A DNA stretch of 64,000 nt from Streptomyces xanthophaeus (GTDB taxonomy: Bacteria > Actinomycetota > Actinomycetes > Streptomycetales > Streptomycetaceae). Positions 9,802-12,447 of the stretch are shown here, in pieces (positions within the stretch are counted from its first letter, which is position 1; every line of letters starts with the position of its first letter). The notes below the pieces were generated by a model that was given only the letters and a program-made list of their open reading frames with translations, was not told the DNA's origin and did not search any database. The position numbers and the translations under genes are program-made. Location of the stretch: contig NZ_JOFT01000027.1 in NCBI RefSeq assembly GCF_000725805.1, forward strand, positions 62,001 to 126,000, in the 5' to 3' direction.

Positions 9802-10380
9802 ATGGAGAAGATCGACGAACTGATCAAGCAGGTCAGCAGTGGTGGGCGGGTGAAGTTCCTGCCGTTCTGGGGCCACCGCCCCCGGCCCGACGGGACGCTC
9901 GGACCGAGCTGCCTCAGCCAGTGGTGGCCGTCGGAATTCACTGTGGGTGACGTCCGCTACGCCACGGCGGAGCACTGGATGATGGCCGGGAAGGCCCGGC
10001 TGTTCGGGGACGAGCAGGCCGTACGCGCCGCCCTGGAGGCGAAGACTCCGGCGGAGGCCAAGAACGCCGGGCGCCTCGTGCGCGGCTTCGACGACGCGGT
10101 GTGGCAGCGGGAGCGCTTCGCCCTGGTCGTGGAGGGCAGCGTGCACAAGTTCGGCTCCGACCCGGCCCTGAGCTCGTACCTGCTGGCCACCGGGGACCGG
10201 GTGCTCGTCGAGGCCAGTCCGATGGACCGGATCTGGGGCATCGGGCTCGCGGCCGACGACGAGCGCGCCCTGGACCCGGCGCGCTGGCGCGGGCTGAACC
10301 TGCTGGGCTTCGCCCTGATGGAGGCGCGCGGGCGGCTGCGCGCAGAGCTCCGCGGGGAGCTGAGCGCAGACGGCGCCTGA
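9802..10380 (+). CDS. NADAR-domain (YbiA/RibX-like) N-glycosidase
   Basis: The 192-residue protein belongs to the NADAR/YbiA family. Conserved pieces are VKFLPFWGH, EFTVGDVRYATAEHWMMAGKARLFGD, PMDRIWGIGL and WRGLNLLGFALMEAR. Members cleave N-glycosidic bonds, acting on riboflavin-pathway intermediates (RibX) or removing ADP-ribose from guanine bases. The ATG at 9802 gives a protein of normal family length; in-frame upstream starts such as GTG 9772 exist and none has a clear ribosome binding site. It is divergent from the polyamine operon and only 47 bases before the Y-RNA-like array and Ro60 gene, hinting at a nucleic-acid role. The substrate is unknown. Confidence 0.85.
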   Translation: MEKIDELIKQVSSGGRVKFLPFWGHRPRPDGTLGPSCLSQWWPSEFTVGDVRYATAEHWMMAGKARLFGDEQAVRAALEAKTPAEAKNAGRLVRGFDDAVWQRERFALVVEGSVHKFGSDPALSSYLLATGDRVLVEASPMDRIWGIGLAADDERALDPARWRGLNLLGFALMEARGRLRAELRGELSADGA

Positions 10381-10427
10381 CGGTAAATGCGTGGCGGCGG
10401 CCGGTGCCCCCGGCCTAACGTGATCCT

Positions 10428-10563
10428 TGTCCAGGTGCGCAGGTGAGACCTACTTCCACTGTTAATGGGGCGGCCGCGGGTTCGAGTCCCGTCACCGGCT
10501 TCGGGCCGGTGTAGCTCAGTCGGTAGAGCACCACGTGGTTTCGCCGCACTCGATCTCTGGACA
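10428..10563 (+). ncRNA. yrlA: Y-RNA-like RNA 1 (YrlA type) with permuted tRNA module
   Basis: The ends pair as TGTCCAG (10428-10434) with CTGGACA (10557-10563). Inside, GTGC pairs with GCAC and GGTGAGACC (10442-10450) with GGTTTCGCC (10537-10545), leaving TCGATCT (10550-10556) as a bulge; TACTTC follows the inner stem. The distal part is a tRNA rearranged end to end: T-arm GCGGG-TTCGAGT-CCCGT (10476-10492), acceptor stem CACCGGC/GCCGGTG (10493-10499 with 10505-10511) capped by a UUCG-type loop, then UA and a D-arm GCTC-AGTCGGTA-GAGC (10514-10529). There is no anticodon arm. This is the layout of bacterial YrlA RNAs that bind Ro60. Ends are estimated from the stem. Confidence 0.85.
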
Positions 10564-10572
10564 CTGCATCAC

Positions 10573-10647
10573 GCACCTCCCGGTGCGCGGGCTGCGGCTA
10601 CTTCTTCCACGAAACCATGCCGCCGCCACCTTGATCTCGGGAGGCGC
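10573..10647 (+). ncRNA. Y-RNA-like RNA 2, minimal, no tRNA module
   Basis: This unit repeats the conserved blocks of its neighbours: GTGCGCGGG, then TACTTC (10599-10604), and the 3' bulge TTGATCT (10631-10637). Its outer stem CCTCCCG (10576-10582) pairs with CGGGAGG (10638-10644), and its inner stem GGC-T-GCGGC pairs with GCCGC-C-GCC. Both stems differ in sequence from units 1 and 3 yet keep pairing. Only about 14 bases (10605-10618) separate TACTTC from the 3' strand of the inner stem, so the tRNA-like module is absent. It could bind Ro60 without an effector arm. Whether it is expressed is unknown. Confidence 0.65.
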
Positions 10648-10799
10648 ACGTGCGGGAGGCCCGGTGCGCAGGCAACGGTTACTTCTCGGGATCAGCAGGT
10701 GGCGGGTTCGAGTCCCGCCCGGCTCCGGCCGGTAGCTCAGACGCGTAGAGCAGCTGACACAAGTCCGTCGCCGACTTCGATCTCGGGCCTCCCGCACGT
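10648..10799 (+). ncRNA. yrlA: Y-RNA-like RNA 3 (YrlA type) with permuted tRNA module
   Basis: A perfect 16-base outer stem joins ACGTGCGGGAGGCCCG (10648-10663) to CGGGCCTCCCGCACGT (10784-10799). The inner stem GGCAACGG (10671-10678) pairs with CCGTCGCC (10765-10772) with one mismatch. TTACTTC (10679-10685) and the TCGATCT bulge (10777-10783) match units 1 and 2. The permuted tRNA module has T-arm GCGGG-TTCGAGT-CCCGC (10702-10718), acceptor CCGGC-TCCG-GCCGG (10719-10732), UA, and D-arm GCTC/GAGC (10735-10751) whose loop lacks the usual GG. TCAGC (10692-10696) pairs with GCTGA (10753-10757) to join module and body. It ends 40 bases before the Ro60 gene. Confidence 0.83.
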
Positions 10800-10839
10800 C
10801 ACGCCTCCCCCTGCTTCCTTTGAATTCGGGGGGATTCAC

Positions 10840-12447
10840 ATGGCTCGTTTCAACCTGCTCCGCTCCAAGGCGGCGCCCGCATCGCCCACTTCGCCGACCT
10901 CGCCCGTCCGCTCCACCGGCGCCCGTGCGGCCAACCACCACGGCAGCCGGGGACACCTGCGCGATCCGCGCTCCGAGCTGTTCCTGCTCGCCGTCGCCAA
11001 CTTCGTGACGCAGCGGACCGCCTACGAGAGCGGCGAGGCCCGCGACGGCCGCTTCGCGGCGCTCGTGCGCACCCTCGCCGTCGAGGACCCGCAGTGGACC
11101 GCCGGCCTGCTGGGCTGGCTGCGCGGGGAGGGCAACATGCGCACCGCCTCGCTGGTCGGAGCCGCCGAGTACGTCAAGGCGCGCCTCGACGCGGGTGCCA
11201 CCGACGGGCCCTCGAACCGCCAGGTCGTGGACTCGGTGCTGCGGCGCGCGGACGAGCCCGGTGAACTGCTCGCCTACTGGACGGCCGCGTACGGGCGCAA
11301 CGTGCCCAAGCCCGTCAAGCGCGGCATCGCCGACGCCGTGCGCAGGCTCTACAACGGGGCCTCGCTGCTGAAGTACGACTCCCCCTCGGGCCGGCAGGCG
11401 TACCGCTTCGGTGACGTCCTCAACCTCGTGCACGCCTCCCCCGACCCGGCCAAGGCCTGGCAGGGCGAGCTGTTCCGGTACGCCCTCGACCGGCGGCACC
11501 ACCCGGAGGCCGCGCGGGTCCCGGAGGGCAACCGCACCCTGGTCGCCCACCGGGCGCTGATGGACCTGCCGGTGGAGGAACGCCGGGCCGTGGTCGTCTC
11601 CCCCGAGGGCGCGGAGCGGTTCGCCGCGGCGGGCATGACCTGGGAGGCGCTGGCCGGATGGCTGCAGGGCCCGATGGACGCGGCCGCCTGGGAGGCGGTC
11701 ATCCCGTCCATGGGCCCGATGGCGCTGCTGCGGAACCTGCGCAACTTCGACCAGGCCGGGGTCTCGGACGAGGTCGCGGCCGAGGTGGCGGCGAAGGTCT
11801 GCGACCCGGAGGTCGTGGCCCGGTCCCGGCAGTTCCCCTTCCGCTACCTGGCCGCCTACCAGCACGCGCCCTCGCTGCGCTGGGCGTACCCGCTGGAGCA
11901 GGCGCTCGGCCACTCGCTGGGCAACGTCCCGGCGCTGGCCGGGCGGACGCTGATCCTCGTCGACCGGTCGGGGTCCATGTGGAGCCCGCTCTCGGACCGC
12001 TCCCAGCTCAACCGGGCGGACGCGGCGGCGGTCTTCGGTGCGGCGCTGGCCCAGCGGGCCGAGCGCGCGGACCTCGTGCAGTTCGGTACGAAGAGCCACG
12101 CGGTCGCGTACCGGCGGGGCGAGTCCGTGCTGAAGGTGCTGGAGCGGTTCGGGGACCTCGGCGGCACGAACACCTCCGAGGCCGTCCGGCAGCACTACAA
12201 GGGGCACGACCGGGTCCTGATCGTCACCGACGAGCAGGGCGACCACCGCTACTACGGCGGCGACCCGACGGAGCTGGTCCCGGACACCGTCCCGGTCTAC
12301 ACCTGGAACCTGGCGGGCTACCGGGTGGGCCACGCGCCTTCCGGTTCGGCGAACCGGCACACCTTCGGCGGGCTCACCGATGCGGCCTTCCGCATGGTGT
12401 CCCTGATCGAGGGCGGCCAGGACGCCGACTGGCCCTGGGCCGCGTAG
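10840..12447 (+). CDS. rsr: TROVE-domain Ro60 / Rsr RNA-binding protein
   Basis: This 535-residue protein is a bacterial Ro60 ortholog. The TROVE domain (about 30-340) is a HEAT-like ring that holds misfolded RNA ends and binds Y RNA on its surface. The C-terminal von Willebrand A domain has an intact MIDAS motif D375-x-S-x-S (LVDRSGSMWS) with GTNTSEA and VTDEQ further on. The start at 10840 follows a GGGGGG ribosome binding site seven bases upstream. Three Y-RNA-like units lie directly upstream on the same strand, as expected for an rsr locus. In other bacteria the Ro60-Y RNA complex tethers polynucleotide phosphorylase; that role here is inferred. Confidence 0.94.
   Translation: MARFNLLRSKAAPASPTSPTSPVRSTGARAANHHGSRGHLRDPRSELFLLAVANFVTQRTAYESGEARDGRFAALVRTLAVEDPQWTAGLLGWLRGEGNMRTASLVGAAEYVKARLDAGATDGPSNRQVVDSVLRRADEPGELLAYWTAAYGRNVPKPVKRGIADAVRRLYNGASLLKYDSPSGRQAYRFGDVLNLVHASPDPAKAWQGELFRYALDRRHHPEAARVPEGNRTLVAHRALMDLPVEERRAVVVSPEGAERFAAAGMTWEALAGWLQGPMDAAAWEAVIPSMGPMALLRNLRNFDQAGVSDEVAAEVAAKVCDPEVVARSRQFPFRYLAAYQHAPSLRWAYPLEQALGHSLGNVPALAGRTLILVDRSGSMWSPLSDRSQLNRADAAAVFGAALAQRAERADLVQFGTKSHAVAYRRGESVLKVLERFGDLGGTNTSEAVRQHYKGHDRVLIVTDEQGDHRYYGGDPTELVPDTVPVYTWNLAGYRVGHAPSGSANRHTFGGLTDAAFRMVSLIEGGQDADWPWAA

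Follow-up and report, generated by a model that had tools for sequence, protein, structure and literature searches.

The closest described relatives of this locus are the YrlA-type Y RNAs (Rfam RF02553) of Deinococcus, Salmonella and Mycobacterium smegmatis, which likewise adjoin rsr, have a basal stem and carry a head of permuted T, acceptor and D arms. The tRNA-like domain of YrlA is not known to include an anticodon arm. Passages of PMC8394870 describe YrlA as an RNA of 90-150 nt with a domain resembling the D, T and acceptor arms, and introduce RYPER, i.e., Rsr-Y RNA-PNPase. The alignment of a bacterial Y RNA to tRNA by circular permutation is reported in part of PMC11472068. According to sections of PMC8394870, PMC9879122 and PMC4726728, the Y RNA head contacts PNPase in Deinococcus and Salmonella. 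Y RNAs are described as separate RNAs that tether Rsr to PNPase (PMC8394870, PMC4726728), with Ro60 sitting on the lower stem (PMC4726728). The Salmonella operon rsr-yrlBA-rtcBA has two Y RNAs, yrlB and yrlA (extracts of PMC7790460 and PMC9879122). It resembles the array described here in having more than one Y RNA per rsr operon, but its units number two, lie downstream of rsr and are accompanied by rtcBA.

In the window, i.e., the whole 64,000-nt stretch of Streptomyces xanthophaeus DNA that was analysed, three Y RNA-type units are found directly upstream of a Ro60-like rsr gene (10428-10799). The features of the locus are as follows.

10383..10396, + strand: candidate upstream promoter element (gtaaatgcgtggcg), a putative -35 position or activator site, noted by eye and unscored
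10416..10421, + strand: predicted -10 element TAACGT, from TANNNT spacing; transcription is predicted to begin at the 5' end of unit 1
10428..10563, + strand: unit 1, a Y RNA whose head is a nearly whole permuted tRNA, anticodon arm included (covariance models, alignment)
10576..10644, + strand: unit 2, a module-less Y RNA (fold over 10572-10648, alignment, covariance model R1)
10650..10797, + strand: unit 3, a YrlA-type Y RNA whose stem can be extended to 10648-10799 (fold, Rfam YrlA, covariation)
10822..10837, + strand: palindrome GAATTC-GGGGG-GATTC around the likely rsr ribosome-binding site, of putative function
10840..12447, + strand: rsr, a Ro60-like protein with TROVE and VWA domains (Pfam and solved-structure matches)

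This layout bears out the sequence-only reading, which had proposed three units with shared blocks and different, paired outer stems in front of Ro60. The blocks GTGCGC, TACTTC and T(C/T)GATCT are common to the three units at equivalent positions, and each unit has its own outer stem (TGTCCAG/CTGGACA in unit 1, CCTCCCG/CGGGAGG in unit 2 and a 16-bp stem in unit 3). The product of the downstream gene matches Pfam TROVE at 51.5 bits (cut-off 23), with a best stretch of residues 280-340 only, and the solved TROVE proteins 9l5y and 9kop at 97.3 bits; its score against VWA_2 (22.0 bits) is below the cut-off of 27. In adjoining rsr, the units are placed as bacterial Y RNAs in the broad sense are. 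At the gathering cut-off no Rfam family matches within the window, and YrlA is matched at relaxed E-values only; ARAGORN finds no tRNA within the window. The YrlA model does match units 1 and 3, as had been predicted, but at 35.8 and 52.3 bits both are under its cut-off of 69. Two neighbouring genes were considered as partners of the system, a NADAR gene upstream and an adenosine deaminase gene downstream, and set aside, each being present in only 15 of 80 loci by tblastn.

Loci for comparison came from a contig scan (best 80 of 178 rsr loci) and from 150 Streptomyces genomes, 88 of which have rsr matches; 29 of these matches became loci besides that of the window. After removal of six duplicates there were 104 distinct loci, the window included. 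The outer stem assigns most units to three classes: GTCCAG/CTGGAC in class 1, CACCTCCCG/CGGGAGG without a module in class 2, and CCCG/CGGG or TCCG/CGGA with a longer extension in class 3. In the class alignments a basal stem, putatively of the Ro60-binding kind, and the sequence blocks are common to all three. For class 2 we used 88 of 89 units, dropping the second unit of one locus (L059), and for class 3 84 of 86, dropping the two middle units of another (L073, from Peterkaempfera). Covariance models were built from class 2 (R1) and class 1 (R2); their E-values are rough. These models corrected the initial typing by regular expression, which had overlooked some degenerate units.

The array is real and widespread in the genus. 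We took a census of 100 Streptomycetaceae rsr loci, out of 103 distinct ones besides that of the window (all but L108-L110), at E up to 1e-8 and with R2 matches divided into classes 1 and 3 at 100 bits. All 100 have at least one unit class and 56 have all three; the other combinations are classes 2 and 3 (22 loci), 1 and 2 (nine), 1 and 3 (six), class 1 alone (four) and class 2 alone (three). Class 2 is present in 90 loci, that of L073 being a longer form with a reduced module, class 3 in 84 and class 1 in 75. Genome-wide, R1 matches 78 of the 150 Streptomyces genomes under stricter filters, which lose weak matches, and every one of the 78 belongs to the 88 genomes with rsr matches: 76 of the 81 with a full or nearly full rsr and two of the seven with remnants, against none of the 62 without rsr. 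The absence from these 62 is the stronger half of the result, because many of the genomes supplied training rows. Among 17 non-training Streptomyces loci (L179-L195), 14 have full-length R1 matches (76.6-92.7 bits), none of them at a training locus, though the class 2 sequence of one (L187) is identical to a training row; L180, L186 and L192 score 26.6-42.5 bits. When presence is mapped onto a quick Rsr tree, about 16 changes are counted for unit 1, 13 for unit 2 and 15 for unit 3; these counts are rough, use the regular-expression sets and omit L059 for class 2. It therefore seems that none of the units is essential by itself. Five-unit Y arrays occur in other actinomycete genera (L206, L209).

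The covariation claimed inside this one locus compares three different RNAs, and the true test lies in the orthologues. That test is positive, with two-sided changes in 19 of 40 pairs in class 1, 3 of 18 in class 2 and 21 of 39 in class 3. Folding each unit separately gives a divided answer, as units 2 and 3 each beat 200 of 200 shuffles and unit 1 alone does not.

Unit 3 is the best fit to the YrlA-type head, with the following parts.

10692..10696, + strand: 3' strand of the anticodon stem, partner 10753-10757 (132 two-sided cells in the helix)
10702..10718, + strand: T arm (Rfam YrlA match, covariation)
10719..10732, + strand: acceptor stem of 5 bp with its loop (covariation)
10735..10751, + strand: D arm (Rfam YrlA match, covariation)

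Its YrlA match has an E-value of 5e-11 in a 491-base search, and its fold has a z-score of -4.13. The class 3 alignment (84 rows) has 292 two-sided cells, and 0 of 500 shuffles are as good. The T arm, the closed acceptor stem and the D arm have 96-100% of cells paired, with two-sided changes in each, so that unit 3 has the permuted tRNA-like domain of YrlA. It had been described as having no anticodon arm. This needs amending, since the anticodon stem is present and it is the loop that is opened into the Y stem; the pattern of a full anticodon arm is found in two of 86 class 3 units, one of them a middle unit of L073. Judged by their D arms, the heads of unit 3 appear to switch tRNA identity. 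A D arm of the GTAGCTC type is found in 61 of the 86 class 3 units, a Leu-like arm in 13, an initiator-Met/Asp-like arm in 10 and another kind in two. The Leu-like and initiator-Met/Asp-like forms are a difference from YrlA, as is the presence of three units per array. Several of the Leu-like units have, in the alignment, an extra stem where the variable arm of a class II tRNA sits, and the D arm of L071 includes a 21-nt stretch of tRNA-Leu(gag) of the window genome, compared by eye. The D-arm type changes about 19 times on the quick tree, L073 being omitted from the count.

Unit 1 departs further from YrlA.

10456..10470, + strand: anticodon arm CCA-CTGTTAA-TGGGG, with the loop CTGTTAA at 10459-10465 and the triplet GTT (covariation, loop variation)
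10476..10492, + strand: T arm (Rfam YrlA match, covariation)
10493..10511, + strand: acceptor stem of 7 bp with a small closing loop (covariation)
10514..10529, + strand: D arm (Rfam YrlA match, covariation)
10531-10532, + strand: lower anticodon stem, paired with 10469-10470 (covariation)

Its match to Rfam YrlA (E 3e-6) covers model positions 24-84 only. All three arms of the YrlA domain are present, and an anticodon arm is added to them. The sequence-only reading had denied unit 1 such an arm. That claim is overturned by the covarying arm at 10456-10470, whose region is kept in 74 of 77 class 1 rows (it is absent from L013, L029 and L032). In class 1, TACTT is followed by a 3-bp hairpin with a 7-nt loop, CU-NNN-(A/C)A, in which 99.5% of cells are paired and 23 are two-sided; two extra pairs with the strand 3' of the D arm are 100% paired, with four two-sided cells. 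Three pairs and a 7-nt loop are found in 72 of the 77 units, while in L079 one pair is mismatched and in L064 the loop has 6 nt. Over the whole class (77 rows, 76 distinct), 96.0% of cells are paired, and 0 of 500 shuffles reach any of five measures. Unit 1 folded alone has a z-score of -1.05, and 35 of 200 shuffles fold as well. The support for unit 1 is comparative.

In the loop of this arm, C32, U33 and A38 are almost invariant over 73 loops, positions 34 and 35 are the most variable (1.13 and 1.50 bits), U36 is found in 72 of the 73 and C37 in 13. Two spurious loops (GTCGCGG and TTATGGG) were taken off the pattern-based arm count, and the count on the tree used the 73 loci with the loop pattern. 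Parsimony on the quick Rsr tree gives 37 changes of the triplet over these 73 loci and 14 of the arm stem, counts that tree error may have inflated. U36-A37 in an anticodon loop is a t6A signature; reading the loop of unit 1 in this way is weakened by C37 in those 13 loops and by units elsewhere with C36. In another locus (L207, unit 1154-1289), a Glu-like D arm is found together with a CUC loop triplet, and both fit one tRNA identity. Thus, unit 1 is a nearly whole tRNA whose permutation point lies in the anticodon stem, at the place of insertion of the Y stem. The anticodon arm therefore gives the set of units three grades instead of two. The outer stems of classes 1 and 2 hardly vary within each class, which suggests constraints beyond pairing.

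Unit 2 is the module-less member that had been proposed. Its 7-bp outer helix gives way to blocks that are unpaired in part, and only 14 bases lie between TACTTC and the 3' strand of the inner stem. No Rfam family is matched on its strand at E up to 10, and there is no tRNA-like domain in its short loop. Its fold, over 10572-10648, has a z-score of -3.34. R1 scores it at 84.2 bits, with the window being one of the model's 88 training rows. In class 2 (88 rows, 86 distinct), pairing holds in 99.4% of cells, and the 21 two-sided cells all lie in the inner stem, the outer stem being almost invariant. With so little variation in the outer stem, the two measures based on counts of pairs or of pair types are not clearly above shuffles (22/500 and 486/500). 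Unit 2 does not belong to YrlA but may function in the manner of a Y RNA. Animal Y RNAs (hY1-hY5) are alike in plan, having a Ro60-type lower stem and a simple loop; no sequence homology with them is claimed. GTGCGC and CTTGAT presumably resemble human Y3.

Reduced heads are found among the relatives of unit 2. On the same stem (CACCTCCCG), a unit of L073 bears a T arm and part of a module, divergent Streptomyces loci have heads shortened to a T arm with a hairpin (L245, L246) or to a T arm alone (L224), and some Streptomyces units (L025) retain a T-loop-like TTCGAAT in the loop. These heads suggest that unit 2 lost a former module, and it looks like a reduced form that has persisted. In L023, L071, L081 and L105, class 2 has shrunk to about 32 nt. 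L080 and L045 have, by eye, a mini remnant of unit 1 upstream of unit 2.

Some Rsr lineages have a module-less (headless) unit only. Twelve divergent Streptomyces rsr loci, chosen after they had first shown no headed unit, have one module-less unit each upstream of rsr. R1 gives one match in each (41.2-52.9 bits). R2 finds no headed unit in these twelve loci, its sole weak match lying on the module-less unit of L232, and in the downstream flanks neither R1 nor R2 matches in eight of eight. In a tree of 39 Rsr proteins, nine of the headless-only proteins group together (100/100), and so do the other three (100/100), which lie next to the protein of L296, a locus that does have headed units. A single clade for all twelve is not rejected (p-AU 0.138). 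Thus, the headless-only state arose once or twice. Four genomes of the nine-member clade (G038, G041, G143 and G147; completeness 99-100%) have a single rsr and one R1 match each. R2 and YrlA searches of these four find only a cross-match to tandem tRNA-Asn genes; a divergent headed RNA could escape them. In nine of the twelve loci (L225, L230-L234 and L236-L238), rsr begins, by eye, with CTG where the main rsr has ATG.

The array is predicted to be transcribed as one unit. A TANNNT motif precedes GTGCG by 14-30 nt in 76 of 77 class-1-first arrays (by exactly 19 nt in 70 of them), against 8.5% of mononucleotide shuffles. Class-2-first arrays have a promoter-like pattern in only 15 of 26, mostly at 25 nt. 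Blocks like TAAA/AAAA..C.TGGC can be seen by eye in many of 40 class-1-first and 26 class-2-first loci. A sigma-70 consensus scan of the window finds no promoter, and a scan of 10200-10900 finds no terminator-like site. The linkers between the units are short. Taken with the promoter-like element, these short linkers and the lack of a sigma-70-type promoter or a terminator in the consensus scans point to one predicted transcript across the array, probably running into rsr.

Folding of the whole leader is less tidy. In the minimum-energy fold from 10426 to the rsr start codon, units 1 and 2 cross-pair, and the outer stem probability is 0.004 for unit 2 and about 0.22-0.28 for unit 1. Without the rsr leader it is 0.73 for each of the two, and of 51 species, 34 reach 0.5 for the outer stem of unit 1, 39 for that of unit 2 and 36 for that of unit 3. 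As modelled, the cross-pairing would count against tidy separate folding. Just before rsr, the palindrome (GAATTC-GGGGG-GATTC/GAATTC) encloses the likely ribosome-binding site, with the pattern in 88 of 104 loci, and translational control through it is possible.

Related elements are also found away from rsr. Y RNA-like units with a class-2-like stem lie elsewhere in 11 of the 150 Streptomyces genomes (L257-L267), followed in L257, L258, L259, L260 and L266 by a module-bearing unit. Such units suit trans-acting RNAs. Two strong R2 matches (G016:C3:297842-297979, 119.9 bits, and G101:C1:118531-118670, 103.6 bits) do not adjoin a listed rsr. In the genome of the window, R2 matches units 1 and 3, one further tRNA-like locus (L276) and, in part, tandem tRNA-Asn genes. 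The further locus (L276:2150-2426) has two adjacent permuted tRNA-like elements that are without the Y RNA blocks and lie directly downstream of a DUF7873 gene (402.8 bits). Between the first gene's anticodon arm and the second gene's D arm, both included, the tandem tRNA-Asn genes match R2 positions 29-104 at 56.2 bits, with all pairs standard. Matches of tandem tRNA-Asn genes to the permuted-head model, across a spacer of a few nucleotides, are found in L277:366-441 and L278-L281. Read across the spacer, such a pair is like the R2 head, but these are ordinary tRNAs without a basal Y stem, and are related to the units only as a possible origin. This suggests that the permuted head may have arisen from tandem tRNA genes read across their spacer.

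We think it probable that the rsr leader is a polycistronic Y RNA gene, whose processed headed and headless Y RNAs compete for one Rsr ring. One promoter would drive a transcript from the start of unit 1, and the three Y RNAs would be co-transcribed, probably into rsr. The basal stem of each would bind Rsr, by homology. After processing, the Y RNAs would compete for the single ring. The headed ones would tether Rsr to a partner that recognises tRNA, e.g., PNPase, as in Deinococcus and Salmonella, and the headless one would occupy and protect Rsr with no recruitment of a partner. The ratio of headed to headless RNA would then set the amount of tethered Rsr. More speculatively, the anticodon arm of unit 1 might also engage proteins that read anticodon arms. 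We infer that one Ro60 may choose among Y RNAs, as the earlier reading had it.

The units could instead act in cis, their stems being a site at which Rsr controls its own mRNA and not being excised as RNAs. The short linkers, the lack of a terminator and the palindrome spanning the likely ribosome-binding site would suit such a leader. We nevertheless hold it to be unlikely, since related units are found away from rsr in those 11 genomes, the heads retain full tRNA-like structure, and Y RNAs elsewhere are separate RNAs (as stated in parts of PMC8394870 and PMC4726728). Equally improbable, in our estimate, is that unit 2 is a functionless decaying YrlA-type RNA or a processing stem, and that only the headed units matter. 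Reduced intermediates do exist, and the class is down to about 32 nt in some loci, yet of the three classes it is class 2 that is retained in most loci, with a nearly constant outer stem and a covarying inner one, and a module-less RNA of this kind is all that precedes rsr in the twelve divergent loci and the only Y RNA found in four genomes. The notion that all of this is chance, i.e., fragments of tRNA genes folding by accident, has a ready basis in the matches of the YrlA model and R2 to tandem tRNA-Asn genes. It is rejected by the conservation tests as extremely improbable, given the covariation, the co-occurrence with rsr, the fixed distance of the promoter-like element and the basal blocks that tRNAs lack.

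A further alternative concerns unit 1, which might mainly be a decoy or sensor for enzymes of the anticodon arm (nucleases or modification enzymes), with Rsr stabilising it. The arm is indeed kept while its triplet changes, and the near-invariant C32, U33 and A38 and the nearly constant U36 speak for this reading. Outside class 1 of Streptomyces, however, position 36 can be C, and together with C37 in 13 of the 73 loops this means that no single modification signature is kept. In addition, a portion of PMC7790460 reports that YrlA fragments were not detected in Salmonella under conditions in which tRNAs are cut, although YrlA is another type of RNA. We regard the decoy as conceivable but doubtful, and for the locus as a whole favor the polycistronic Y RNA gene.

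The kind of RNA found here is that of the known bacterial Y RNAs. New here are the anticodon arm, the grading of the three units and the Rsr loci with a headless unit only. The suggestion that a three-member array may not have been described holds only in part. Chen et al. in 2014 reportedly found at least one Y RNA per species with a tRNA-like domain, which implies others without one. There is also the operon with two Y RNAs in Salmonella (in the extract of PMC9879122). Among the matches listed in our literature search, titles and the starts of abstracts hold nothing on Streptomyces Y RNA arrays or on a Y RNA anticodon arm, which is weak evidence of novelty. More tentatively than the polycistronic gene, we propose a wider picture, in which one Ro60 is served by Y RNAs of three grades, some lineages are headless only, and the head is an optional adaptor whose tRNA identities have been exchanged, perhaps via tandem tRNA genes.

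If this is true, the tRNA head would be an optional adaptor and not the defining part of bacterial Y RNAs. The locus offers a natural comparison, in which the same protein meets the same kind of basal stem with three grades of head, and to which the headless-only Rsr lineages can be added. The role of the stem in gating or protecting Rsr would thus be separable from the role of the head in recruiting partners. Should unit 1 truly mimic a tRNA with its anticodon arm, the tRNA enzymes or nucleases that recognise it could come to light as well. With the array kept in much of the genus, Streptomyces would provide a way to test what purpose tRNA imitation serves beyond the tethering of PNPase.
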